DNA of 64,000 nucleotides, taken from contig CM067315.1 of NCBI GenBank assembly GCA_034231615.1, positions 34,303,156 to 34,367,155 on the forward strand, written 5' to 3'. Under the pieces are notes generated by a model, which did no database searches, had not been told where the DNA came from, and was given only the letters and a program-made list of their open reading frames with translations. This document shows, piece by piece, positions 23,870-58,495 of this stretch; the stretch's first letter is position 1; each line of letters opens with the position of its first letter. Position numbers and translations under genes: made by a program. Origin of the DNA: Meghimatium bilineatum. Taxonomy: Eukaryota > Mollusca > Gastropoda > Stylommatophora > Philomycidae.

Positions 23870-25362
23870 AGTGTAATCCATTTTTACTAAACGAGCTACT
23901 CCCAGAGAGTCAGTGCGGTTTTCGTGCATGTCGTGGTACAGTTGATATGATATTCTCTGCACGACAAATTCAGGAAAAGTCACAAGAGCAACATAGTGAA
24001 CTCTTAGCAACATTTGTGGACTTAACTAAAGCATTCGATACCGTTAACAGAGAAGGACTGTGGAAGGTGCTTACAAAGTTCGGATGCCCCCCAAAACTTG
24101 TCACTGTGATACGACAATTTCATGACGGTATGATGGCTAGTGTTATCTGCGACGGGGGAGTATCTCCTGCATTCCCTGTCACAAATGGTGTAAAGCAGGG
24201 ATGTGTGCTGGCCCTTACTCTTTTCAGCCTGTTATTTACGGCCATCTTAACGGAAACACACCATAGTAATGAAACAGCAGGCATAATGATCAATTACAGA
24301 ACGGGTGGTGGTCTTTTCAATTTACGTCATCTAAAAGCAAACACGAAAACTAAATCTAGTACTGTTAGAGAATTACTTTATGCTGACGACTGTGCATTGT
24401 ATGCTGACTCTGTCGTAAACATGCAGAGCACCATAGACCGCAAAAAAACAGAAGTCATGCACCAAGCAACATCAAATAGCCAACATACTGCTACTTCCAT
24501 CATCGTCAATCAGGAAAAACTGCAGGTAGTCGACAATTTTACTTACCTTGGAAGCACTCTCTCTCGCGATGTCAACATTGATGTGGAAATTAACAATAGA
24601 CTGACAAAAGCTAGTGCTGTATTTGGCAGATTACGCAAAAATGTATGGGACAGAAGAGGTATAAGAACAACCACCAACTACAAGTATATCATGCTGCTGT
24701 TATACCAACCTTACTATACGCCTGCGAAACGTGGACAGTGTATGCTAGACATGCAAGAAAGTTAAATCATTTCCATCTTACCTGCCTACGTAAATTACTA
24801 AACATCCATTGGTGGGACAAAGTACCAGACTACGAGGTCTTGGAAAAATCAACCTCAATAAGCATCCACACAATACTTATGAAGGCGCAGGCACGCTGGG
24901 CAGCCCATCTTGTGCGTATGGAGAACTCGCGTTTGCCAAAACAAATATATTATGGAGAACTCAAGGCAGGATTTCGAAAAGCTGGTGGACAGAAAAGGCG
25001 TTTCAAAGACACGCTCAAGTCATCCTTGAAACATCTTAACATTGACGTAGGCGCTTGGGAGAGCCTCGCTCAGGATAGAACAGCATGGCGTTACAGTATT
25101 AGAACGGGAGCACTAGCGGCGGAAGAATTCAGACAAGAAACTGCAAGACAGAAGCGGACACGTAAAAAAGAAAAAAACATCTCAACCTCACACAGATACC
25201 TTCTATTGTTGTCAATTCTGTAAAAGAACATTTTGTGCGCGCATTGGACTTGCTAGTCATTTAAAAACGCACTATTAACTTTATTATTGTATTATTTATT
25301 GTTATTATTATTATGGTTGAGTTGTTGGTCATCGTCGATCACGACGGACGAACATAATCATC
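23870..25362 (+). mobile_element. Non-LTR retrotransposon, 5' truncated, most complete RT copy in the window
   Basis: From about 23888 the frame reads LLPESQCGFRACRGTVDM, then FVDLTKAFDTVNREGLWKV (block A, catalytic Asp), GVKQGCVLALTLFSLLF (block B) and ELLYADDCALYADSV (block C, YADD). A segment between the YADD block and KKTEVMHQA is missing, and a frameshift near 24690 moves the rest into another frame: YACETWTVYARHARKLNHF through GGQKRRFKDTLKSSLK to about 25160. The 3' region encodes a C2H2-like finger (CQFCKRTFCARIGL), and the end has an ATC/AAT-rich tail. The intact portions are little eroded, so the copy is fairly young. The same 3' end occurs at 44490-45085. Confidence 0.9.
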
Positions 25363-25445
25363 AATCCATTTTTAATTAATTTCACCATATTCATAATCTT
25401 ACATTGTTTATTTTCGAGCTAATTTCTTGTGTCATGTCACTCACA

Positions 25446-40545: not shown

Positions 40546-40594
40546 GAGGTCAATCAACATATCTAATACCTAATCTGGTACAACACTTGCACAC

Positions 40595-40715
40595 CATCTT
40601 CATACAGTCCACCTTCATACAGTCCACCTTCATACAGTCCACCTTCATACAGTCCACCTTCATACAGTCCACCTTCATAAAGTCCACCTTCATACAGTCC
40701 ACCTTCATACAGTTT
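40595..40715. repeat. 15-bp minisatellite next to the neurocalcin donor site
   Basis: Eight near-identical copies of CAGTCCACCTTCATA, about 175 bp into the intron after the N-terminal neurocalcin exon. Read-through of that exon on the minus strand stays open into this array and ends with repeated YEGGL peptides. The clear donor site at 40890 shows that this is intron. Confidence 0.95.
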
Positions 40716-40889
40716 TGAGTTATGAACACTGGAACGAAAGTGGATGAGAAAAGAGCAAGTGGAAATGCAGAGATAAATTGAAACAATGAGAATGAGACAA
40801 AAAAAGATGATGGTAAGGATAAAGAAAAAGGAGGAGTTATAATAAAATAAGAAAGCTAAGATGAGTATGAAAAGATACAGCAAACTTAC

Positions 40890-41267
40890 CGTTACAATCT
40901 CCAGCATTTCTTGTCGAGAGATGTAGCCATTACCATCGAGGTCGTACATACTGAAGGCCCATCTTAGTTTCTGCTCCAACTTTCCTCGTGACGTCACACT
41001 CAGGGCACAGATAAACTCACGGAAGTCTATAGACCCATCGCCGTTTGTATCAAAAGTACGGAAAACGTGCTCTGCAAACCGAGAGGCGTCTCCGTATGGA
41101 AAGAAATTTCCGTATATTTTCTTAAACTCTTCTACGGAAAGATGGCCGCTGGGGCAGTCTTTGAGGAAACCCTTGTACCATTCCTGTAGTTCTTCTTCTG
41201 TAAACTGTGTCTGATGTCGTAGGTCTTCTAGCACTTCTGGTTTCAATTTGCTGTTCTGTTTGCCCAT
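40890..41267 (-). CDS. NCALD: Neurocalcin/hippocalcin-type calcium sensor, N-terminal coding exon
   Basis: Encodes 126 residues starting [16 protein letters not shown]. Gly2 and the following context make a myristoylation signal, as in all neurocalcins and hippocalcins. EF-hand 1 is degenerate ([11 protein letters not shown], with the family's Cys-Pro), EF-hand 2 is [13 protein letters not shown] and EF-hand 3 is [13 protein letters not shown]. The coding part ends EMLEIVT at a splice donor (ACG followed by GTAAGT on the minus strand), phase 0, and joins the exon at 12629-12832 to give 193 residues. Any 5' non-coding exon must lie at higher coordinates. The palindromic element begins about 4.3 kb upstream. 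Molluscs have a known neurocalcin (aplycalcin of Aplysia). I infer that this is its relative. Confidence 0.96.
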
Positions 41268-41514
41268 TGCCCAGCCGCCTTGACTGTGCTGCTCCTAATG
41301 CGCTTGCTGTGAGCTGTTTTCTACACGAGGAGTCTTCCCACCTACTACTGATGATGTGTGTACGGCAAACTTATCTCTGCCTGGTATAGATTGATCCCTA
41401 GCATAGACGGATCGCACAGGTACAGGTGTATCACCTTAAGTGCAGAAGTCTTGTATTTCAGAATTACTAAAAGCACAGAATTAAAACCAAAATTTCAGAC
41501 GTCCCCTGAAGTTT

Positions 41515-44489: not shown

Positions 44490-45085
44490 AACTTACCTGC
44501 CTACGTAAATTACTAAACATCCATTGGTGGGACAAAGTACCAGACTACGAGGTCTTGGACAAATCAACTTCAATAAGCATACACACAATACTTATGAAGG
44601 CGCAAGCACGCTGGGCAGGCCATCTTGTGCGTATGGAGAACTCGCGTTTGCCAAAACATATATATTATGGAGAACTCAAGGCAGGATTTTGAAAAGCTGG
44701 TGGACAGAAAAAGCGATTCAAAGACACGCTCAAGTCATCCTTGAAACATCTTAACATTGACGTAGGCGCTTGGGAGAGCCTCGCTCAGGATAGAACAGCA
44801 TGGCGTTACAGCAATAGAACGGGAGCACTAGCGGCGGAAGAATTCAGACAAGATACTGCAAGACAGAAGCGGACACGTAGAAAAGAAAAAACATCTCAAC
44901 CTCACACAGATACCTTCTATTGTTGTCAATTCTGTAAAAGAACATTTTGTGCGCGCATTGGACTATCTAGTCATTTAAAAACGCACTATTAACTTTATTA
45001 TTTAATTATTTATTGTTATTATTATTATTATGGTTGAGTTTTTGGTCATCGTCGATCACGACGGACGAACATCATCATCATATAA
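44490..45085 (+). mobile_element. Non-LTR retrotransposon 3' fragment, little diverged
   Basis: Nearly identical to 24775-25362: LTCLRKLLNIHWWDKVPDYE, then SISIHTILMKAQARWAGHL and the C2H2-like finger (CQFCKRTFCARIGLSSH), followed by an ATC tail. A TGA interrupts after LKAGF (44692). The high match to the 24-kb copy implies recent activity of this family. Confidence 0.88.
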
Positions 45086-45604: not shown

Positions 45605-45610
45605 TGAGGG
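45605..45610. repeat. Target site duplication, left (TGAGGG)
   Basis: TGAGGG immediately precedes the first base of the palindrome. The same hexamer follows its last base. Confidence 0.8.
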
Positions 45611-45620
45611 AGTAGTATAT

Positions 45621-45866
45621 GATGTTCAAGATGATACGTAGACGCCTCAATACGCCTCAATTACGCCTCCCAAGATGGCGGCCGACGCCTCACAACGCCT
45701 CAAGTACGCATCCAAGATGGCGGCCGACGCCTCACAACGCCTCAAGTATTACTTGAGGCGTTGTGAGGCGTCGACCGCCATCTTGGCGGCGTTGTGAGGC
45801 GTCGGCCGCCATCTTGGGAGGCGTAATTGAGGCGTATTGAGGCGTCTACGTATCATCTTGAACATC
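45621..45866. repeat. Outer hairpin telomere, left copy
   Basis: A 246-bp imperfect palindrome from GATGTTCAAGATGATACGTA to its complement TACGTATCATCTTGAACATC. The outer stem carries GACGCCTCA-type words. The inner stem (around 45712-45785) is closed by CAAGTATTACTTG, and one side of the stem has an extra TCAAGTACGCATC segment, so the fold is asymmetric. CGCCTC occurs at 45643, 45653 and 45664, spaced 10 and 11 bp. AAGATGGCGGC, which resembles the YY1 site, occurs on both sides of the fold. Such a structure can serve as a self-priming origin. Confidence 0.88.
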
Positions 45867-47988
45867 TAGGCATAAGGTTTTCCACTGAAACTTTTCCGTT
45901 GTTTTTAGGTGCAAGGTGATACATCAAGGTCAATATCAGTGAAATTTGTACCCTGTGATTCACCTTTAGCCTGATAACCCAAGATAACGAAAATGACACA
46001 TACAACAGCTGACCTTGTGTCGACCTCACCATTCTAATTATGAAACTTTTCCACACTTTTCCGTTGCTTTTAGGTGCAAGGTGATACATCAAGGTCAATA
46101 TCAGTGAAATTTGTAACCTGTGAGTCACCTTTAGACTGCTAATCCAAGATAACGAAAATGACACATACAACAACTGAAGTTGTGTCGACCTCGCCATTCT
46201 AATTATGAAACTTTTTCCACACCAGAAATTTTGTATCGTTCAGATTAGTGGACTATCGCACCCACATTTAAACCATGCGTTGTATTGGCTTATTTATAAA
46301 ACATGTGTGTGTGGTGTCTAATGAATGGGCGTGAAATGGTGTTTCCATATAAATTAAACCAAGAAACAAGAAAGTTAATGCGGGCAATGAAATATATGAA
46401 AAACATGTTTAAATATAAGCGTATGTAGCAATCTTTATATAAATACACATTGAAAATAAAACTATCAAATCTATTTAACTAAAGCCGGTAACATAACGAA
46501 GACCTCGGGCCGGTAATACCAACAGCTGCAAACCATTAAAGCCCGCTGTATCTCAATTTAGTCCGTGGTCAGTGCATGGAAGCCCAGCGGGTGGTAATTA
46601 ATCAGATCACGGAAAGCCTGGTTCGCTCAGAAACTGGTGTGCGCGATTCGTTTCTTTAAACCGAAAGTTAAGATTATTCTCTCTTCTCTCTCTCTCTCTT
46701 TCTCTCTCTCCCGCTCTCTCTACATATGTGGTACTTTATATATATATTGTTTATCCTATGTTATATAATGAAACCTAGTCCCCACTGAGAAAATTACCAT
46801 ACGCTACTGGTATAGATATCTATGTGAAGTATCTTTTGCAGATTGCTGCCCTCGTTGTTAATCTGTAAGCTTTTCGGCTCTGTACAACCTTTTCAGTGTC
46901 TTTCATTATGTTTAGAAGATCTAAATATCATGCATCCACTGGTAGAACTATGTAACATACCAGGATATCCTGTTGGTCATGAAAAAGTACAGACCTAATA
47001 CCGTTATTTCCCGATATGCCTGATCGGCGTATAAAAGGGAAAACAATTTATTTTTTTACCGGTAAAGCTGGTGAAAACAAATGTGGAAAGGAAAAAATAT
47101 TATAACATGATAACCTAGCTATCAAGGTTTTCTCCCACAAATACACACACACCGCTTTTATGTTGTTAGTTGCCCGTGTGTTATTATACACTTCAAGAGT
47201 CTTTAATATCCAATATAGAAAGACACTCATTTCCCACATGTTAGTTTTGTTAGAGGTCAAAACCCCAAAAGGGTGCTGGGGCTCATTATGGCATATTCTA
47301 ACATAGCTAATTCATAAACACAAAAGGTATGTGTATGGTTTCTAATCAAATGTATTGAGGGCGTGCTCTATATAACTTATTACAACAAACAAAATGCCCT
47401 TCCACTGTTTGTAAACCCAGCTGTGGCCCTTCCACTGTTTGTAAACCCATCGGTGTGTTATTCTGTTAGTAGCATGGGTGTTATTATACAGTTCAACGGT
47501 TTTTAATAACCAATATAGAAATGGACTTATTTACTATACCCATAATAGTTACCATACCTTAAATAACACAGAGGAAAAGTGGTTTGGGTGCCTGAATTAA
47601 CTTGACTAGCTTATGACCCCAACCACGATGGGGTTTCTAATGATATCTTGGTGTGTGTATAACCCTTGTATAAGTCGGTTCTGGGCTCAGCACGTTTTAC
47701 CTATAGAGATCGAAGGCTCCGTTCTTCTTGATCTGTGGATAACCTCGGAGTTCTGTACCTGCCGATAACTTGAACCTCTGTAGTTTATAGAAGGGTTCTT
47801 TGTAACAGGACAAAGCATATAGTACAACGAAACAGACAATACACATATACAAATATAACAATGATTAAACCCGAACCAGAAAAACGTGACAGACATATTT
47901 TTTTCAGAGATATAAAACATATTTATTTATGATTCGCGTACATTTTCCAAAATAATTAAGAAAGAAAAAAAAAGGTTCATGTTATAAT

Positions 47989-48474
47989 TTACTGTCCATG
48001 AAAAGGAGTCCCAGTTGGTTGTAGTAATCGTCTCTTGGTTGGTTTCTTCTTTTTCTGTTCTGGTTGGTTGTGGGTTGCTACAGGCGTCTCAGGTACATAT
48101 GTGGGTTCGTAGTTGGGTGTGAGATACATTTCTAGATTACCAAAATACTGCTCTGTGGTTGTAGACATTTTGTTGGCTGTATTAGCAATTGTGTTTGAAG
48201 GTGGGGAGGTTGAATTGGGTTTTGTGCCAAAAACACCGCACACTCTATCAAATTCTTTCAGAATGACCTCTCGAAGGTCTACGAGATCTACAAAAGCTTG
48301 ACGACTCATTGTGATGCCGGTTCTAGTTGGATACTTTATATTTGCATCACCATAGTAGCGCCGAACATGGATAAGTGGTCTCTTGAATGATGTTACGGCT
48401 ACAGCATTAACACCATCACCTAATGGTTTTATCATATCATTGGCTCTGGAATAATAGGTAGTTGAGGAACTCAT
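47989..48474 (-). CDS. PC4-like single-stranded-DNA-binding protein, left arm
   Basis: Mirror copy of 55626-56111. It keeps Thr where the right copy has Ile (base 48074 in this arm). The TATA box is at 48546-48557. The domain itself is unchanged; the variable residue lies in the Pro/Thr linker. Confidence 0.72.
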   Translation of the reverse strand: MSSSTTYYSRANDMIKPLGDGVNAVAVTSFKRPLIHVRRYYGDANIKYPTRTGITMSRQAFVDLVDLREVILKEFDRVCGVFGTKPNSTSPPSNTIANTANKMSTTTEQYFGNLEMYLTPNYEPTYVPETPVATHNQPEQKKKKPTKRRLLQPTGTPFHGQ

Positions 48475-48618
48475 ATTCCTAATTATTGAAATGACAGTAC
48501 TTTTCTAACCTGGTAGTGCGTTGTGCTGTATTAGATAGTGAGAGTCTTATTTATATACAGGAGCACACACAACGCGGGGCGTGGGCACGTGCACGGTTGT
48601 CCGTGGTGATCTGATTGG

Positions 48619-49020
48619 TTACATCTGGTACATGCCGCATAGTTGACCCCACGCCAGTATGACCTTTTTGGTGTTCTGCTTGGTCACAGCTGGTACATGA
48701 CCCAAGGGTGACCCCACGCTGGTATTAACATTGCAAATAGGGCAAAAGCGACCAGCCTTGATATATGATGATAATAAATGGCTTGGGAACGATGATCCCA
48801 ACACATTATGTTTGGTATCTAGGTCACATATGGTGTACGCATGATCTTTGGTTGTCTTAGCCCTGCTGTTTGTATATACAAGGATAACATTTTTAGTCTT
48901 TATTTTATTATTTTCCCAATGTGTGACTGTGAAACGTGGAAATATAAGCGGCAGCGGCGCACCAAGCCCTTTTAACATTAATAGAGCAAGGAAAAATGGT
49001 GAGTTAGTCAACTTAATCAT
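48619..49020 (-). CDS. 133-residue protein of unknown function, left arm
   Basis: Mirror copy of 55080-55481 with identical translation and the same 8-nt overlap with the upstream gene. Confidence 0.5.
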   Translation of the reverse strand: MIKLTNSPFFLALLMLKGLGAPLPLIFPRFTVTHWENNKIKTKNVILVYTNSRAKTTKDHAYTICDLDTKHNVLGSSFPSHLLSSYIKAGRFCPICNVNTSVGSPLGHVPAVTKQNTKKVILAWGQLCGMYQM

Positions 49021-49986
49021 TGGGCTGACTTAAAGCTTTTTTGAAATGATGAGGTCTGTCTAAAGTGTAAGCCTGACTATTATTTCTTCCCTGGTCGTAG
49101 TGATCTATGATCTTACGCCTAAGGCTGCTATCAAGCACGGGTGAAATGACCGGCTCAAGCCCCTTGACCCGCGTTCGAAACCGTTCCCGGTCTAAGGCGT
49201 AATAACCCCTTGTACCATGATGAGCTTCAACCACAAAAATATAACTAGTTATCAATTTACCCCCTGTAGCAAAATGAACCTGTAGAGTAAACAAAAGGAA
49301 TATAGATTAGCTCGGATTGTTACAGTTATAGGTTATAGGTTACAGTACTTATAGGTTAGCACACTTAAGAAAAAAAAAGTGTGCATTAGCTGTACGTGCA
49401 TATTATTATACACTAGTTACTCCACCACGAATATAATCCTACCCTGTGTAGTGATATCATAGGAAGAAAAAGTACCACGACAAAATAATCTCTGTTCGGT
49501 AATGCTATTATTATTTTTTCAAAGGTTAGCTTAAACACAATCAACTAAACCCCGATTACCACCTTACAACACCAACCAATATATATGTATACATACACAT
49601 AATACCTTTCTACGACCCTGTTTGCTTTCAGTTCCTGAGACAGCGTGACAACGGGCGATGGTAGTGGTAGGATAATCATGCTCCCATTTAGCATTAATCT
49701 GACTAAGTGATGGTAAACATGCTTCTAGACTATTTGTCCCTGACTCGCGGGCTAGCTTAATGGTTTTTGTCTCTGATGATGGGTCTGATACGGCTTCATT
49801 TCTGGGTTTAAAGAGCGTGGCTAGCGTTAAAGACGAATTAAAGACAGAGCAGCTTATCGGGGACATCGATATATCTTCATTGTCTGACCACCCATCACTG
49901 TCTTCATTACTACCAACGCCCGCAGTTGCCTCAGAAGCTGAACACCAAGAAAAAAGGCCCCCAAGTGGACATCTATCGATCTGCAT
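49013..49986 (-). CDS. Two-exon protein of unknown function, left arm
   Basis: Mirror copy of 54113-55087: exon A 49606-49986, exon B 49013-49279. The intron between them contains the A-run at 49370-49378 that is one base shorter than its partner at 54721-54730. This is the only length difference I found between the arms, and it lies in non-coding sequence. Confidence 0.6.
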
Positions 49987-50624
49987 TTTCACTGGCGACG
50001 TTGGTCGTATCGGTTTTTTTGTTGTTGTTGGGATTTAAAAGGCACTAATGATGGAGAAGCCACACCTACCAGCTGCCTACGGGTAATGTTAGGGCCTATA
50101 AGAGTGAAGTGTATTATAGGGATTGTGTACTACCTTCAACATTAACCACTACCAGTAATAATCTGCCGAACTAGCTAAACTCACCCGCACCACATAAACA
50201 ATAGCTAAACATATAGGGTAGCTTGTTATGGGGTAGTACCTGAGCGATACGTAGTGAAAATTTTATTAATGTGTAACCTATACATAAAGGATGAAAAAAG
50301 GCTAACCTTCGTCATTGTCTTAAACATGCGCATCTCTGGGAATGACATCTCAGCACGGGCTATAAATACAAAAGCATATGATTCTGATACTAACAAACGA
50401 GCAAACACCTAGTTTTATATACGAACCAGCTACACCAATCGACTGTATTGCACTATTGAAGCGCAACCGAATAGGCAATACAGGTTTGGTACTGTGCACA
50501 CACTCGGAGTAACCCATTCATCCCATTGGGTGATGTGTGTATATTTGTATTACCAACCATTTAAAAAAGCATACGTTATCGGCGCTTACTAATAGAAACT
50601 ACCGGAACTTTGTCATTTTGAAGA

Positions 50625-51743
50625 ATGGCTTATGTAAGTAATGTTGTTAATATCTGAATAGGTTGTTTGTTATTCTAACAGGATTTTCGATCCTAGTCTT
50701 GTTTTTGTCTCTTCTTCAGACATGCGTTAACGGGCACATTCTCTACCTTTTCTATGGTATTTTGATGTTAAATTTAATGTCTGACATGTGTGAAATTCTA
50801 TAGGGTCTTGGTTGTTGGCCCGTTTTGGTAGTTGCCAGCATGTGGGCGTGGAAACAAGTTGCTGTAAATGTGAATACATTTGTGTAATTTTTGGTGTGTA
50901 TATTTTGGATGAATACACTATCATCCCGGTGATATATCGGGGTATTATTTATTACTATTGTTGTGCTCGTTTTTTATGTATATTGTTTGAGTTGTGTATG
51001 TATAGCCTGAATATGAGTTAGGGCTAACTATGTTTGGTATCTGCTTTGTAATTGGATTATTTACGCAGTCCATCTATTCTCCACAGACCAAGACGGCCAC
51101 CAAAACCTACCTGTGTGTTCAATGCTTGAAACCATTCAGTCGCCTTTACACACTGCAAAGACATACACAAGATCTTCACCTTAAAAAAAGACATAACTGT
51201 AATGTTTGTGTTAATGTTTACACAGACGCTTCAACATTAAGACAGCACAGGCAGAAGTGTCATACACCCCAATTAGTAACAACGGAGGGGACTTTTAAAC
51301 CTAGCGAGGGGCATCATAGTAATTTAACACCAACCAAGAACATGATACTAGTTGATCCCCAGGTGGTCGACGCCTTGCTGTATAAAACAGTCTATAAACC
51401 ACCTGATTCTTTAACTTATTCTATGGGTGAGTTGGACCAAGAAATGCGGGCGGTTTTAGTTCGTGGTGATTTAACCAATCACGAAAAATCTAGACTATAC
51501 CAAAAAGCATTGCAACAGTATTTGAATCGACTTAGTCAATACAAAAACACACCTATGAAGCTATTAGAGAGCACGCAGTGTTCGGTACCAAGTGCTTCAA
51601 TACAGAAAGATGAAGAACCCACTGAGAAAATTCCAGAGAAAGTCGAAGTGATGCCTAAGACGCCACGGTTTCAAAATAGGCGGGCATCTAAAAGAACAAA
51701 AAGTAAAACAAGGGACAAAAGTCTGATTTGGGATAAGTGGTAG
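50625..51743 (+). CDS. Spliced C2H2 zinc-finger protein of the palindromic element, left arm
   Basis: The predicted first exon is only 9 nt (50625-50633, Met-Ala-Tyr) and ends at a consensus donor GTAAGT. The acceptor TTACGCAG puts exon 2 at 51069-51743 in phase 0 (a second in-phase acceptor is at 51087), giving about 227 residues. Exon 2 has two C2H2-type fingers (CVQCLKPFSRLYTLQRHTQ, and CNVCVNVYTDASTLRQHRQ), which suggests DNA binding. A helical segment follows (SMGELDQEMRAVLVRGDLT, then NHEKSRLYQKALQQYLNRL). The C-terminus is basic (RRASKRTKSKTR). I have only a weak memory of similar helical segments in Polinton/adintovirus-type small proteins. AATAAA signals at 51823 follow the stop. Without splicing, the frame could start at ATG 51030. 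Confidence 0.7.
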
Positions 51744-51931
51744 AAAAAACTGTAGAAGGCAACGCACCATTGCACAACAAATTGTCGACTGTTCAAACAA
51801 ATATGATACTTATATAACATTAATAAATAAAATAAAATAATAAAACCACAACGATGTTGTTGTATTTATCTGTATTTGTGTGTGTGTGACTATATGTAAA
51901 ACAAGATTGCTCATAAACATAAAAAACTATG

Positions 51932-52167
51932 CCGGTTTCCCTCCTAGCACGGGATCCCGTGTAACACGGGGTCTTTCATCTTGGACCTACATGGGATACC
52001 GGGCTACACGAGCCCGTGTAACACGGGATCCCGTGTAGGTCCAAGATGATAAAACCCATGTTACACGGGACCCCGTGCTACACGGGCCAGTGTAGCACGG
52101 GAGCCCGTGTAGGTCCAAGATGAAAGACCCCGTGTTACACAGGATCCCGTGCTAGGAGGGAAACCGG
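51932..52167. repeat. Central T-shaped hairpin (inner telomere / dimer bridge)
   Basis: Outer stem 51932-51990 pairs with about 52109-52167 (CCGGTTTCCCTCCTAGCACG against its complement). The 120 bp between them do not form one simple stem. They contain several short palindromes (ACACGGGATCCCGTGT, CACGGGACCCCGTG, GGGCTACACGAGCCC) able to fold as cross-arms. The core word CACGGG recurs about ten times. This differs fully from the outer hairpin, so the monomer would be heterotelomeric. Confidence 0.85.
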
Positions 52168-52355
52168 CATAGTTTTTTATGTTTATGAGCAATCTTGTTT
52201 TACATATAGTCACACACACACAAATACAGATAAATACAACAACATCGTTGTGGTTTTATTATTTTATTTTATTTATTAATGTTATATAAGTATCATATTT
52301 GTTTGAACAGTCGACAATTTGTTGTGCAATGGTGCGTTGCCTTCTACAGTTTTTT

Positions 52356-53474
52356 CTACCACTTATCCCAAATCAGACTTTTGTCCCTTGTTTTACTTTT
52401 TGTTCTTTTAGATGCCCGCCTATTTTGAAACCGTGGCGTCTTAGGCATCACTTCGACTTTCTCTGGAATTTTCTCAGTGGGTTCTTCATCTTTCTGTATT
52501 GAAGCACTTGGTACCGAACACTGCGTGCTCTCTAATAGCTTCATAGGTGTGTTTTTGTATTGACTAAGTCGATTCAAATACTGTTGCAATGCTTTTTGGT
52601 ATAGTCTAGATTTTTCGTGATTGGTTAAATCACCACGAACTAAAACCGCCCGCATTTCTTGGTCCAACTCACCCATAGAATAAGTTAAAGAATCAGGTGG
52701 TTTATAGACTGTTTTATACAGCAAGGCGTCGACCACCTGGGGATCAACTAGTATCATGTTCTTGGTTGGTGTTAAATTACTATGATGCCCCTCGCTAGGT
52801 TTAAAAGTCCCCTCCGTTGTTACTAATTGGGGTGTATGACACTTCTGCCTGTGCTGTCTTAATGTTGAAGCGTCTGTGTAAACATTAACACAAACATTAC
52901 AGTTATGTCTTTTTTTAAGGTGAAGATCTTGTGTATGTCTTTGCAGTGTGTAAAGGCGACTGAATGGTTTCAAGCATTGAACACACAGGTAGGTTTTGGT
53001 GGCCGTCTTGGTCTGTGGAGAATAGATGGACTGCGTAAATAATCCAATTACAAAGCAGATACCAAACATAGTTAGCCCTAACTCATATTCAGGCTATACA
53101 TACACAACTCAAACAATATACATAAAAAACGAGCACAACAATAGTAATAAATAATACCCCGATATATCACCGGGATGATAGTGTATTCATCCAAAATATA
53201 CACACCAAAAATTACACAAATGTATTCACATTTACAGCAACTTGTTTCCACGCCCACATGCTGGCAACTACCAAAACGGGCCAACAACCAAGACCCTATA
53301 GAATTTCACACATGTCAGACATTAAATTTAACATCAAAATACCATAGAAAAGGTAGAGAATGTGCCCGTTAACGCATGTCTGAAGAAGAGACAAAAACAA
53401 GACTAGGATCGAAAATCCTGTTAGAATAACAAACAACCTATTCAGATATTAACAACATTACTTACATAAGCCAT
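52356..53474 (-). CDS. Spliced C2H2 zinc-finger protein of the palindromic element, right arm
   Basis: Mirror copy of 50625-51743 with identical translation: exon 1 at 53466-53474 and exon 2 at 52356-53030. The two copies are convergent on the central hairpin and their 3' ends lie 190 bp from its outer stem. The promoter region between this gene and its divergent neighbour carries a CCAAT-type box (CCAATGGGATG near 53571) on one side and a TATA box for the other gene at 53679. Confidence 0.7.
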
Positions 53475-53675
53475 TCTTCAAAATGACAAAGTTCCGGTAG
53501 TTTCTATTAGTAAGCGCCGATAACGTATGCTTTTTTAAATGGTTGGTAATACAAATATACACACATCACCCAATGGGATGAATGGGTTACTCCGAGTGTG
53601 TGCACAGTACCAAACCTGTATTGCCTATTCGGTTGCGCTTCAATAGTGCAATACAGTCGATTGGTGTAGCTGGTT

Positions 53676-53690
53676 CGTATATAAAACTAG
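53676..53690 (+). promoter_or_regulatory. TATA box of the two-exon gene (right arm; mirror at 50411-50420)
   Basis: TATATAAAAC within CGTATATAAAACTAG, about 70 bp before a candidate ATG exon at 53751. The divergent zinc-finger gene starts about 200 bp to the left, so the two genes share a compact bidirectional control region. Confidence 0.55.
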
Positions 53691-54112
53691 GTGTTTGCTC
53701 GTTTGTTAGTATCAGAATCATATGCTTTTGTATTTATAGCCCGTGCTGAGATGTCATTCCCAGAGATGCGCATGTTTAAGACAATGACGAAGGTTAGCCT
53801 TTTTTCATCCTTTATGTATAGGTTACACATTAATAAAATTTTCACTACGTATCGCTCAGGTACTACCCCATAACAAGCTACCCTATATGTTTAGCTATTG
53901 TTTATGTGGTGCGGGTGAGTTTAGCTAGTTCGGCAGATTATTACTGGTAGTGGTTAATGTTGAAGGTAGTACACAACCCCTATAATACACTTCACTCTTA
54001 TAGGCCCTAACATTACCCGTAGGCAGCTGGTAGGTGTGGCTTCTCCATCATTAGTGCCTTTTAAATCCCAACAACAACAAAAAAACCGATACGACCAACG
54101 TCGCCAGTGAAA

Positions 54113-55087
54113 ATGCAGATCGATAGATGTCCACTTGGGGGCCTTTTTTCTTGGTGTTCAGCTTCTGAGGCAACTGCGGGCGTTGGTAGTAATGAAGACA
54201 GTGATGGGTGGTCAGACAATGAAGATATATCGATGTCCCCGATAAGCTGCTCTGTCTTTAATTCGTCTTTAACGCTAGCCACGCTCTTTAAACCCAGAAA
54301 TGAAGCCGTATCAGACCCATCATCAGAGACAAAAACCATTAAGCTAGCCCGCGAGTCAGGGACAAATAGTCTAGAAGCATGTTTACCATCACTTAGTCAG
54401 ATTAATGCTAAATGGGAGCATGATTATCCTACCACTACCATCGCCCGTTGTCACGCTGTCTCAGGAACTGAAAGCAAACAGGGTCGTAGAAAGGTATTAT
54501 GTGTATGTATACATATATATTGGTTGGTGTTGTAAGGTGGTAATCGGGGTTTAGTTGATTGTGTTTAAGCTAACCTTTGAAAAAATAATAATAGCATTAC
54601 CGAACAGAGATTATTTTGTCGTGGTACTTTTTCTTCCTATGATATCACTACACAGGGTAGGATTATATTCGTGGTGGAGTAACTAGTGTATAATAATATG
54701 CACGTACAGCTAATGCACACTTTTTTTTTTCTTAAGTGTGCTAACCTATAAGTACTGTAACCTATAACCTATAACTGTAACAATCCGAGCTAATCTATAT
54801 TCCTTTTGTTTACTCTACAGGTTCATTTTGCTACAGGGGGTAAATTGATAACTAGTTATATTTTTGTGGTTGAAGCTCATCATGGTACAAGGGGTTATTA
54901 CGCCTTAGACCGGGAACGGTTTCGAACGCGGGTCAAGGGGCTTGAGCCGGTCATTTCACCCGTGCTTGATAGCAGCCTTAGGCGTAAGATCATAGATCAC
55001 TACGACCAGGGAAGAAATAATAGTCAGGCTTACACTTTAGACAGACCTCATCATTTCAAAAAAGCTTTAAGTCAGCCCAATGATTAA
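54113..55087 (+). CDS. Two-exon protein of unknown function, right arm
   Basis: Exon A 54113-54493 ends at donor AAAG/GTATTA. Exon B begins 54821 after the acceptor TTACTCTACAG and runs to TAA at 55087. Both junctions are phase 0 and give 215 residues. The N-terminal part is acidic and Ser-rich (SNEDSDGWSDNEDISMSPIS). The part across the junction is richer in charged and aromatic residues (FVVEAHHGTRGYYALDRERF). I recognise no domain. The open frame continues 16 codons upstream of ATG 54113, so an upstream exon may exist. A TATA box (TATATAAAAC, 53679-53688) and a short ATG exon candidate at 53751-53792 lie upstream, but I found no in-phase acceptor joining them. Confidence 0.6.
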
Positions 55088-55481
55088 GTTGACTAACTCA
55101 CCATTTTTCCTTGCTCTATTAATGTTAAAAGGGCTTGGTGCGCCGCTGCCGCTTATATTTCCACGTTTCACAGTCACACATTGGGAAAATAATAAAATAA
55201 AGACTAAAAATGTTATCCTTGTATATACAAACAGCAGGGCTAAGACAACCAAAGATCATGCGTACACCATATGTGACCTAGATACCAAACATAATGTGTT
55301 GGGATCATCGTTCCCAAGCCATTTATTATCATCATATATCAAGGCTGGTCGCTTTTGCCCTATTTGCAATGTTAATACCAGCGTGGGGTCACCCTTGGGT
55401 CATGTACCAGCTGTGACCAAGCAGAACACCAAAAAGGTCATACTGGCGTGGGGTCAACTATGCGGCATGTACCAGATGTAA
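55080..55481 (+). CDS. 133-residue protein of unknown function, right arm
   Basis: Starts at ATG 55080 inside the last codons of the preceding gene; the two frames overlap by 8 nt at ATGATTAA. The protein begins with a hydrophobic stretch (SPFFLALLMLKGLGAPLPLI) that could be a signal or anchor segment, and has a CPIC motif near residue 93 with other Cys residues scattered. It is not a recognised family. The tight overlap suggests that the two products come from one transcript by reinitiation or alternative splicing. The frame is conserved in both arms, but so is all surrounding sequence, so that does not itself prove coding. Confidence 0.5.
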   Translation: MIKLTNSPFFLALLMLKGLGAPLPLIFPRFTVTHWENNKIKTKNVILVYTNSRAKTTKDHAYTICDLDTKHNVLGSSFPSHLLSSYIKAGRFCPICNVNTSVGSPLGHVPAVTKQNTKKVILAWGQLCGMYQM

Positions 55482-55542
55482 CCAATCAGATCACCACGGA
55501 CAACCGTGCACGTGCCCACGCCCCGCGTTGTGTGTGCTCCTG

Positions 55543-55554
55543 TATATAAATAAG
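55543..55554 (+). promoter_or_regulatory. TATA box of the PC4-like gene (right arm; mirror at 48546-48557)
   Basis: TATATAAATAAG lies about 30 bp upstream of a plausible start near 55575. A CACGTG E-box core is nearby (55509-55514) in a locally GC-rich stretch, and the region is unlike the AT-rich flanks. Confidence 0.65.
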
Positions 55555-55625
55555 ACTCTCACTATCTAATACAGCACAACGCACTACCAGGTTAGAAAAG
55601 TACTGTCATTTCAATAATTAGGAAT

Positions 55626-56111
55626 ATGAGTTCCTCAACTACCTATTATTCCAGAGCCAATGATATGATAAAACCATTAGGTGATGGTGTTAATGCTGTA
55701 GCCGTAACATCATTCAAGAGACCACTTATCCATGTTCGGCGCTACTATGGTGATGCAAATATAAAGTATCCAACTAGAACCGGCATCACAATGAGTCGTC
55801 AAGCTTTTGTAGATCTCGTAGACCTTCGAGAGGTCATTCTGAAAGAATTTGATAGAGTGTGCGGTGTTTTTGGCACAAAACCCAATTCAACCTCCCCACC
55901 TTCAAACACAATTGCTAATACAGCCAACAAAATGTCTACAACCACAGAGCAGTATTTTGGTAATCTAGAAATGTATCTCACACCCAACTACGAACCCACA
56001 TATGTACCTGAGACGCCTGTAGCAATCCACAACCAACCAGAACAGAAAAAGAAGAAACCAACCAAGAGACGATTACTACAACCAACTGGGACTCCTTTTC
56101 ATGGACAGTAA
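55626..56111 (+). CDS. PC4-like single-stranded-DNA-binding protein, right arm
   Basis: 161 residues. Residues about 20-80 match the PC4/SUB1 transcription-coactivator fold pattern: strand AVAVTSFKRPLIHVRRYY, then the loop, then TRTGITMSRQAFVDLVDL, and the closing helix REVILKEFDRV. PC4-type domains bind single-stranded DNA as dimers. The C-terminal half is a Thr/Pro-rich linker ending in a basic run (KKKKPTKRRLL), a likely nuclear signal. A TATA box (TATATAAATAAG, 55543-55554) lies about 72 bp upstream of the start, and an ATAAATAAA polyadenylation signal is at about 56171. It differs from the left copy at one residue (Thr to Ile, base 56026). The family call is from pattern recognition and needs a profile search. 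Confidence 0.72.
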   Translation: MSSSTTYYSRANDMIKPLGDGVNAVAVTSFKRPLIHVRRYYGDANIKYPTRTGITMSRQAFVDLVDLREVILKEFDRVCGVFGTKPNSTSPPSNTIANTANKMSTTTEQYFGNLEMYLTPNYEPTYVPETPVAIHNQPEQKKKKPTKRRLLQPTGTPFHGQ

Positions 56112-57890
56112 ATTATAACATGAACCTTTTTTTTTCTTTCTTAATTATTTTGGAAAATGTACGCGAATCATAAATAAATATGTTTTATATCTCTGAAAAA
56201 AATATGTCTGTCACGTTTTTCTGGTTCGGGTTTAATCATTGTTATATTTGTATATGTGTATTGTCTGTTTCGTTGTACTATATGCTTTGTCCTGTTACAA
56301 AGAACCCTTCTATAAACTACAGAGGTTCAAGTTATCGGCAGGTACAGAACTCCGAGGTTATCCACAGATCAAGAAGAACGGAGCCTTCGATCTCTATAGG
56401 TAAAACGTGCTGAGCCCAGAACCGACTTATACAAGGGTTATACACACACCAAGATATCATTAGAAACCCCATCGTGGTTGGGGTCATAAGCTAGTCAAGT
56501 TAATTCAGGCACCCAAACCACTTTTCCTCTGTGTTATTTAAGGTATGGTAACTATTATGGGTATAGTAAATAAGTCCATTTCTATATTGGTTATTAAAAA
56601 CCGTTGAACTGTATAATAACACCCATGCTACTAACAGAATAACACACCGATGGGTTTACAAACAGTGGAAGGGCCACAGCTGGGTTTACAAACAGTGGAA
56701 GGGCATTTTGTTTGTTGTAATAAGTTATATAGAGCACGCCCTCAATACATTTGATTAGAAACCATACACATACCTTTTGTGTTTATGAATTAGCTATGTT
56801 AGAATATGCCATAATGAGCCCCAGCACCCTTTTGGGGTTTTGACCTCTAACAAAACTAACATGTGGGAAATGAGTGTCTTTCTATATTGGATATTAAAGA
56901 CTCTTGAAGTGTATAATAACACACGGGCAACTAACAACATAAAAGCGGTGTGTGTGTATTTGTGGGAGAAAACCTTGATAGCTAGGTTATCATGTTATAA
57001 TATTTTTTCCTTTCCACATTTGTTTTCACCAGCTTTACCGGTAAAAAAATAAATTGTTTTCCCTTTTATACGCCGATCAGGCATATCGGGAAATAACGGT
57101 ATTAGGTCTGTACTTTTTCATGACCAACAGGATATCCTGGTATGTTACATAGTTCTACCAGTGGATGCATGATATTTAGATCTTCTAAACATAATGAAAG
57201 ACACTGAAAAGGTTGTACAGAGCCGAAAAGCTTACAGATTAACAACGAGGGCAGCAATCTGCAAAAGATACTTCACATAGATATCTATACCAGTAGCGTA
57301 TGGTAATTTTCTCAGTGGGGACTAGGTTTCATTATATAACATAGGATAAACAATATATATATAAAGTACCACATATGTAGAGAGAGCGGGAGAGAGAGAA
57401 AGAGAGAGAGAGAGAAGAGAGAATAATCTTAACTTTCGGTTTAAAGAAACGAATCGCGCACACCAGTTTCTGAGCGAACCAGGCTTTCCGTGATCTGATT
57501 AATTACCACCCGCTGGGCTTCCATGCACTGACCACGGACTAAATTGAGATACAGCGGGCTTTAATGGTTTGCAGCTGTTGGTATTACCGGCCCGAGGTCT
57601 TCGTTATGTTACCGGCTTTAGTTAAATAGATTTGATAGTTTTATTTTCAATGTGTATTTATATAAAGATTGCTACATACGCTTATATTTAAACATGTTTT
57701 TCATATATTTCATTGCCCGCATTAACTTTCTTGTTTCTTGGTTTAATTTATATGGAAACACCATTTCACGCCCATTCATTAGACACCACACACACATGTT
57801 TTATAAATAAGCCAATACAACGCATGGTTTAAATGTGGGTGCGATAGTCCACTAATCTGAACGATACAAAATTTCTGGTGTGGAAAAAGT
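56112..57890. other. Non-coding outer part of the right arm (mirror 46210-47988)
   Basis: AT-rich DNA with no convincing gene. It contains two diverged direct copies of a ~75-bp block about 300 bp apart (TATATTGGTTATTAAAAACC at 56584 and TATATTGGATATTAAAGACT at 56884) and an immediate duplication of GGGTTTACAAACAGTGGAAG (56651, 56682). A (GA)n tract is at 57383-57420. A 77-codon frame at 56180-56413 with a hydrophobic N-terminal half overlaps the presumed polyadenylation signal and is doubtful. Confidence 0.6.
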
Positions 57891-58209
57891 TTCATAATTA
57901 GAATGGCGAGGTCGACACAACTTCAGTTGTTGTATGTGTCATTTTCGTTATCTTGGATTAGCAGTCTAAAGGTGACTCACAGGTTACAAATTTCACTGAT
58001 ATTGACCTTGATGTATCACCTTGCACCTAAAAGCAACGGAAAAGTGTGGAAAAGTTTCATAATTAGAATGGTGAGGTCGACACAAGGTCAGCTGTTGTAT
58101 GTGTCATTTTCGTTATCTTGGGTTATCAGGCTAAAGGTGAATCACAGGGTACAAATTTCACTGATATTGACCTTGATGTATCACCTTGCACCTAAAAACA
58201 ACGGAAAAG
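57889..58209. repeat. 165-bp direct duplication next to the outer hairpin (mirror 45891-46211)
   Basis: Two copies of a block containing TTCATAATTAGAATGG, GGTCGACACAA, GTATGTGTCATTTTCGTTAT and GATGTATCACCTTGCACCTA, offset by 165 bp and about 90% alike. 165 is a multiple of three, which keeps a 114-codon frame open across both copies. Its position beside the telomere suggests a regulatory or origin role and not a gene. Confidence 0.8.
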
Positions 58210-58233
58210 TTTCAGTGGAAAACCTTATGCCTA

Positions 58234-58479
58234 GATGTTCAAGATGATACGTAGACGCCTCAATACGCCTCAATTACGCCTCCCAAGATGGCGGCCGACG
58301 CCTCACAACGCCGCCAAGATGGCGGTCGACGCCTCACAACGCCTCAAGTAATACTTGAGGCGTTGTGAGGCGTCGGCCGCCATCTTGGATGCGTACTTGA
58401 GGCGTTGTGAGGCGTCGGCCGCCATCTTGGGAGGCGTAATTGAGGCGTATTGAGGCGTCTACGTATCATCTTGAACATC
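58234..58479. repeat. Outer hairpin telomere, right copy
   Basis: Exact inverted counterpart of 45621-45866, with the same asymmetric inner stem (here CTCAAGTAATACTTGAG) and the CGACCG/CGGCCG mismatch in the same relative place. Both ends of the dimer therefore carry the hairpin in the same isomer. Confidence 0.88.
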
Positions 58480-58489
58480 ATATACTACT

Positions 58490-58495
58490 TGAGGG
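58490..58495. repeat. Target site duplication, right (TGAGGG)
   Basis: Partner of 45605-45610. Outside it the flanks are unrelated (left ...AAATAGG, right CCCTGAAATA...), so the symmetry stops at the duplication. A chance hexamer match has odds of about 1 in 4096. Confidence 0.8.

Follow-up and report, generated by a model that had tools for sequence, protein, structure and literature searches.

A family of wholly palindromic integrated elements with Maverick-type ends in the gastropod Meghimatium bilineatum

Main

How does a stretch of almost 13 kb that consists of two mirrored copies of the same genes come to be inserted, as a unit, into an animal genome? The question is raised by a 64,000-nucleotide stretch of DNA from the gastropod Meghimatium bilineatum (assembly GCA_034231615.1, contig CM067315.1, forward-strand positions 34,303,156 to 34,367,155; hereafter the window), in which an earlier note, made from the letters alone, had described a palindrome with a 6-bp target duplication and had proposed, for what it held to be no described kind of element, the integration of a tail-to-tail dimer of a linear, hairpin-ended element. 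Here we place this palindrome in a large family. The palindrome is likely to be an integrated, non-autonomous element of the Maverick/Polinton lineage, the standard form of which is self-complementary, with arms of 6.4–7.6 kb where measured that are joined at an imperfect hairpin, and which is presumably moved by a related helper. Its parts are Maverick-like; what appears to be new is a family of elements that consist of nothing but inverted repeat, each gene having its mirror copy in the opposite arm.

Structure of the palindrome

A symmetry scan and an alignment of the arms bear out the near-perfect inverted repeat of 12.9 kb with 6.4-kb arms (Table 1). Each arm measures 6.43 kb, and the inverted segments pair as 45611–49378 with 54722–58489 and as 49370–52037 with 52062–54729. 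The interval originally delimited, 45605–58495, takes in both copies of the hexamer TGAGGG; the element proper is 45611–58489. In the pairwise alignment, the arms differ at more than 100 bp from the axis by two substitutions (48074/56026 and 50122/53977) and one indel in an A-run (49370), and the remaining asymmetry, 10 mismatches and two gaps, all lies within 92 bp of the axis. Apart from the central hairpin, which in this copy spans about 200 bp with imperfect symmetry, the palindrome has no unique interior. The flanks are unrelated, as had been claimed, the two outer 1-kb pieces having a single weak 47-bp match in common. Both TGAGGG copies directly abut the AGTAGT...ACTACT termini, which bears out insertion as a unit with a 6-bp target duplication. 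The same termini, (AGT)2//(ACT)2, and 6-bp target duplications are published for vertebrate Mavericks (PMC8097293).

A large family of inverted pairs

The genome assembly searched comprises 1.61 Gb in 32 contigs. Each arm carries a C2H2 zinc-finger open reading frame (ORF) of 237 aa, for which 150 matches were scored, the best of 1832 candidates; a stop codon interrupts 5 of the 150, a count biased to intact copies because only the best candidates were scored. These matches fall for the most part (128 of 150) into 64 inverted pairs, arranged plus-then-minus as in the window, with match starts 987–1497 bp apart and protein identities to the window copy that reach down to about 87%. The other 22 are unpaired, their mates perhaps lost or merely unscored. 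The outer 990 bp of the arm gives 176 genome matches, many of them inverted pairs 9–16 kb apart (40 of 316 candidates scored). The arm, which the earlier note had suggested looking for on other contigs, thus has many copies. The dimer proposed there comes close to the structure found; the palindrome is, however, the regular integrated form of a large family and not a single dimerized element.

Ten further elements were read as halves. In eight, the arms are 99.4–99.9% identical over 6.5–7.6 kb (in two alignments for C1); those of C18b align partly (inner 5.0 kb at 99.5%, outer 0.9 kb at 97.0%), and those of C25 over the inner 4.7 kb only, at 99.4%. Element C16:23012985–23022228 contributes a single zinc-finger ORF to the scored matches, although both ends match the arm across the available 2,490 bp; from its overall length, it looks like a palindrome that has an internal deletion in one arm and not like a monomer. 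No free-standing 6.4-kb monomer turned up, no search having been aimed at monomers. Bases 437–990 of the arm also recur as head-to-head pairs about 1.25 kb long, like miniature palindromes from the same arm (Table 1).

AGTAGT ends with matching 6-bp duplications are present in 19 of the 21 family elements with both ends read (20 of 22 if C25a, a non-palindromic relative described below, is counted). One set contributed 12 element pairs, all 12 with AGTAGT ends and an identical hexamer on both sides; it consisted of C25a and 11 family elements, including the window copy and the C16 element with the shortened arm. In the other set, of ten elements, a script located the ends and the duplication in seven, and in C6 the hexamer CATGCC was read by eye at both ends, with one additional AGT at the left end. 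The two family elements outside the 19 are C18b, the ends of which were not located, and C25, which has Ns in its right piece; C5 and C16b, with one end read each, were excluded from the count. Listed across copies, as had been proposed, the hexamers differ between related elements.

Lockstep variation between the arms

The two arms of an element vary together. In an alignment of 11 elements over 2.5 kb (window 49400–51940 and its counterparts, gap-containing columns omitted), both arms agree in every element at 267 variable columns, and in each of the 11 discordant arm cases one allele is private to one element. Eight near-identical 14-kb elements, compared over their outer 3,060 bp, have six shared variants (four substitutions and two gap columns), each in both arms, and two further substitutions that a single element has, again in both arms; the variants confined to one arm (six substitutions, plus eight gap columns in C10, left arm) are all private. 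In neither comparison is a single-arm variant common to several elements. As ordinary duplex copying would pass on some single-arm variants, the arms are probably brought to one haplotype around each mobilization, judging from these alignments, and homogenization looks tied to mobilization rather than continuous.

Asymmetry is concentrated at the axis. When mismatches and gaps are counted from the axis outwards in steps of 100 columns, through the innermost 700 nt of every arm piece, 11–42 fall in the first step (which includes end gaps from piece cutting), 0–10 in the second and 0–5 in the third, and no later step has more than 1, in all 11 elements; this fits a hairpin with an uncorrected turn. 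Sequence resembling the CACGGG/CCCGTG centre is found in all ten other elements, in C11b and C6 only as matches of 31–43 bp.

The chief rival to a fold-back origin of these patterns is gene conversion between the arms in the chromosome: the palindrome would have arisen once and been copied as ordinary duplex, its arms being kept identical after insertion, in parallel to Y-chromosome palindromes, where gene conversion does this. Such conversion predicts the same identity within elements and would likewise spare a short spacer at the axis, and if it were fast and preceded each mobilization it would be compatible with the data. What tells against it is that single-arm variants persist and are all private, whereas variants common to several elements always stand in both arms; we consider this explanation unlikely, but the most serious of the alternatives.

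Other origins

Symmetric adenovirus recombinants exist, and inverted-dimer adenovirus genomes are laboratory or defective by-products. The window palindrome might similarly be an accidental, defective dimer inserted at this site only, and its centre is indeed a hairpin prone to fold-back. The likeness lies in a protein-primed linear genome made into an inverted dimer: small adenovirus vectors have been packaged as direct and inverted dimers (PMC4189039). The palindromes described here differ in that they are integrated, occur in large numbers and form a diverged family, and a single event is refuted by the 64 inverted pairs of the same layout. A one-off dimer is therefore very improbable; an accidental dimer as the origin of the family is possible.

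A parvovirus-like element, in which hairpin telomeres and a Rep nicking enzyme would serve rolling-hairpin replication, has hardly any probability left. Self-complementary genomes of parvoviruses and adeno-associated virus, like rolling-hairpin dimers, are one-strand duplexes able to fold on themselves, with identical arms, and the window copy has, besides its central hairpin, a near-perfect hairpin in the outermost 246 bp of each arm, beginning 11 bp inside the end. However, no Rep or superfamily 3 (SF3) helicase domain was recognized by Pfam in the arm ORFs, the ends and the 6-bp duplication on integration are of the Maverick type, and none of seven other elements with different end sequences, folded at their true ends, has a comparable terminal hairpin (C14b has weak long-range pairing). 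We therefore rejected this candidate; nor was the hairpin-ended nature assumed in the earlier note borne out as a general trait. Sites of the AAGATGGCGGC-type lie in both orientations within the terminal hairpins (window 45672–45815 and 58285–58428); presumably they are like YY1 sites, and putative binding of a host factor at the ends is possible.

An assembly artefact, from fold-back reads or a collapsed larger element, is scarcely credible and was likewise rejected: palindromic chimaeras are a recognized artefact of amplified DNA (PMC6218980), and polishing could over-homogenize arms that are known here from assembled sequence, not raw reads, but matching duplications stand at many loci and the single-arm differences are real, in keeping with the original judgement that the palindrome does not look like a fold-back artefact.

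Foldback (FB) transposons have very long terminal inverted repeats made of short tandem units, unlike the present arms, which hold ORFs and end as Mavericks do. With Maverick/Polinton elements (polintoviruses, adintovirus-like) the palindrome shares its ends, its duplication and a total length within a similar range. The differences are that the inverted repeat is the entire palindrome, that the arm lacks a recognized core gene and that every gene is carried twice, mirrored; vertebrate Mavericks are 12.7–24.6 kb long with inverted repeats of 46–1,447 bp (PMC8097293).

Gene content of the arm

Among 300 sequences drawn from a Markov model with matching dinucleotide composition, none has an ORF that reaches the length of the zinc-finger ORF (237 aa against a maximum of 175), and the second-longest arm ORF (161 aa) exceeds the maximum second-longest of those sequences (126). 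In the other left arms, the 161-aa ORF is full length in seven of ten and 108 aa in one more; the 133-aa ORF occurs in four of ten, once as 119 aa; and relatives of the 142-aa ORF measure 140 aa in nine and 100 aa in the tenth. The arm has 47 stop-to-stop ORFs with 50 or more residues; a Pfam scan of 46 of them (unspliced frames, E up to 1 or up to 0.1) recognized no polymerase, integrase, capsid, protease or Rep domain and left four arm ORFs with no significant or only weak matches. Single-sequence structure models had a mean predicted local distance difference test (pLDDT) score too low for use (42.6 for the 161-aa ORF, 40.4 for the 133-aa ORF). Searches at the protein level turned up a single relative, P0001 (68% identity, on a 1,037-bp contig), and none for the 161-aa ORF. 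Scans of viral contigs and of a bacterial and archaeal collection returned no relatives.

Same-ended relatives and a candidate helper

Six places in the genome match the arm in its outer 560–656 bp only, at 98–99% (C25a, C25c, C2, C3, C15b and C16b). Over the outer 622 bp the identity is 98% with C25a, at both of its ends, and with C25c and C2, at one end each. An additional match of 71%, which covers part of the zinc-finger gene, lies at C25c, at C2 and at the right end of C25a; the three are at most candidate autonomous relatives. C16b has the outer sequence at two ends separated by 12.95 kb; none of the scored zinc-finger matches falls in it, and its interior may be another element type.

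In the 2.1-kb end pieces of C25a that were read, a 1,143-bp inverted repeat runs into an ATPase-like ORF, and there is no symmetry farther in. At the right end, this ORF (with AAA, Pox_A32 and Adeno_IVa2 matches) has a 107-aa and a 136-aa ORF near it, and the 136-aa product aligns with the C-terminal domain of the zinc-finger protein across 134 aa at 48% identity (E 1.6e-36). In vertebrate Mavericks the gene order is ATPase, PM, PZ (PMC8097293); judged by this order, the zinc-finger gene of the palindrome is perhaps of the PZ-like kind. The left end has a 377-aa ORF in which part of the ATPase is joined to a segment containing a DTDSLY motif. C25a is a rearranged Maverick-like element and perhaps a partly palindromized intermediate.

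A 251-aa piece that we label polymerase-like also matches inside the ends of C25c and C2 (about 8 kb in) and of C15b (about 5 kb in). The label is based on a DTDSLY-type motif, as in family-B polymerases, and on open frames of 1430–1480 aa.

How a palindrome might be copied

On the reading that we prefer, of a palindromic Maverick-lineage element moved by a helper, mobility in trans, protein priming and a fold-back intermediate are what we infer. A related helper Maverick would supply a protein-primed polymerase in trans, starting at the AGTAGT ends. The displaced single strand would fold back and turn at the central CACGGG/CCCGTG module, and within this hairpin one arm would template or correct the other, such that a new copy leaves with identical arms. 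The helper integrase would then join both ends to the target with a 6-bp stagger, giving the 6-bp duplication.

Several results weigh against this reading. No polymerase, integrase, capsid, protease or ATPase domain was found by Pfam in the arm ORFs, which makes mobility in trans a matter of inference, and the integrase search covered the arm ORFs only. The dN/dS ratios, from few changes, lie at 0.27–1.0 in the zinc-finger ORF and at 0.1–0.72 in the 161-aa ORF, reach 3.8 in the 142-aa ORF, and give no firm sign of purifying selection on the arm ORFs. Every match of the C25a ATPase-like ORF is below the Pfam cut-off. The polymerase-like label is unsupported by any profile, the 251-aa piece having no significant match in Pfam, PHROGs, PDB or phage records, and the 19 PF03175 matches of the genome sit elsewhere. 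Gene conversion and over-homogenization by polishing, discussed above, belong on the same side.

The PF03175 frames on C24 (C24:19408539–19410569, 1350 aa) and C22 (C22:50598798–50599526, 1341 aa), away from the listed palindromes, are a separate polymerase lineage. Two pieces flanking the C24 locus, the flanks being all that was compared, have neither a mutual inverted repeat nor similarity to the arm.

A possible second palindromic family

The 251-aa polymerase-like piece has 150 scored places among 696 candidates. At 78% identity or above there are 102, nearly all single and many in frames of about 1430–1480 aa. Another 48 lie at 64–70%, of which 40 form 20 inverted pairs separated by 6–11 kb, the two members of a pair scoring the same or almost the same; 16 of the 48 are in frames of 1449–1453 aa and others in shorter ones. 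The paired positions point to a putative second palindromic family with a polymerase-like ORF in each arm. A broader idea, which we put forward tentatively and hold to be somewhat doubtful, is that a whole branch of Maverick-type elements in this animal has turned obligately self-complementary, comprising at least two palindromic families (one with the zinc-finger ORF, one with a polymerase-like ORF of up to about 1450 aa per arm) in which a fold-back hairpin repairs arm against arm in every cycle.

Surroundings of the palindrome

Just left of the palindrome, window 44492–45080 repeats, at 96% identity over 590 bp, positions 24777–25363 at the end of a reverse transcriptase ORF, which we take to be LINE-like. 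An open frame on the minus strand (40563–41294) terminates in a tandem GLYEG tail and presumably resembles a neuronal calcium-sensor protein of the visinin/neurocalcin type.

Table 1 Features of the window palindrome and of related loci (window positions unless a contig handle is given)
Feature	Position	Strand	Basis or remark
Palindromic element	45611–58489	.	Ungapped symmetry peak, axis 52050
Left arm	45611–52037	+	Inverted-repeat search, pairwise alignment
Right arm, inverted copy	52062–58489	-	Inverted-repeat search, pairwise alignment
Left target-site duplication TGAGGG	45605–45610	+	Same as 58490–58495
Right target-site duplication TGAGGG	58490–58495	+	Same orientation as left copy
End motif AGTAGT = (AGT)2	45611–45616	+	Sequence
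End motif ACTACT = (ACT)2	58484–58489	+	Sequence
Terminal hairpin with ACGCCTCA and CCAAGATGGCGG repeats, subfamily-specific	45621–45866	+	DNA fold -158.1 kcal/mol, z -33
Terminal hairpin, right arm	58234–58479	-	Sequence comparison
Central imperfect hairpin, CACGGG/CCCGTG repeats, palindrome turn	51943–52154	.	Fold; nearly all arm asymmetry here
237-aa C2H2 zinc-finger ORF	51030–51743	+	Left arm; C2H2 matches below Pfam cut-off
Zinc-finger ORF, right-arm copy	52356–53069	-	ORF list, genome matches
161-aa ORF	47989–48474	-	Weak PC4-like match, E 1.7e-4, below Pfam cut-off
161-aa ORF, right-arm copy	55626–56111	+	One residue different from left
133-aa ORF	48619–49020	-	No family match
133-aa ORF, right-arm copy	55080–55481	+	ORF list
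93-aa ORF	49013–49294	-	No family match
93-aa ORF, right-arm copy	54806–55087	+	ORF list
142-aa ORF, GTG start	49564–49992	-	Candidate ORF; dN/dS not low
142-aa ORF, right-arm copy	54107–54535	+	ORF list
C25a, non-palindromic	C25:38515546–38525458		6-bp duplication CGTGTG; AGTAGT ends
Outer-end-only match	C3:19507085–19507739		Sequence match
Outer-end-only match	C15:9216099–9216658		Sequence match
Outer-end-only match	C16:32468806–32481758		Sequence match
Miniature head-to-head pair	C8:64775461–64776710		Genome match pair
Miniature head-to-head pair	C4:16466688–16467937		Genome match pair
Miniature head-to-head pair	C25:97267255–97268506		Genome match pair
Miniature head-to-head pair	C8:56277121–56278372		Genome match pair
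Miniature head-to-head pair	C8:58423653–58424905		Genome match pair

Discussion

Mavericks figure centrally in present ideas of how many eukaryotic DNA viruses arose, and their replication mode has mostly been deduced from sequence. The original claim that the window palindrome is of no described kind has to be narrowed, as its ends and duplication are already published for vertebrate Mavericks (PMC8097293) and a same-ended, non-palindromic element lies in the same genome; the all-repeat form with mirrored genes appears to keep its novelty, the literature searched at title and abstract level containing no description of palindromic Maverick genomes or of such a family.

If the arms are reset to one haplotype around mobilization, the family's own sequence records a replication intermediate, and fold-back replication of a Maverick-type genome becomes testable by genome data alone, through insertion dates and arm mismatches. 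The family would also provide a natural genome made entirely as an inverted repeat, a structure commonly held to be unstable or defective. Should the wider idea of an obligately self-complementary branch be true, fold-back repair keeps an otherwise asexual mobile genome clear of single-arm mutations, and the palindromes may jointly make up a multipartite virus-like system.

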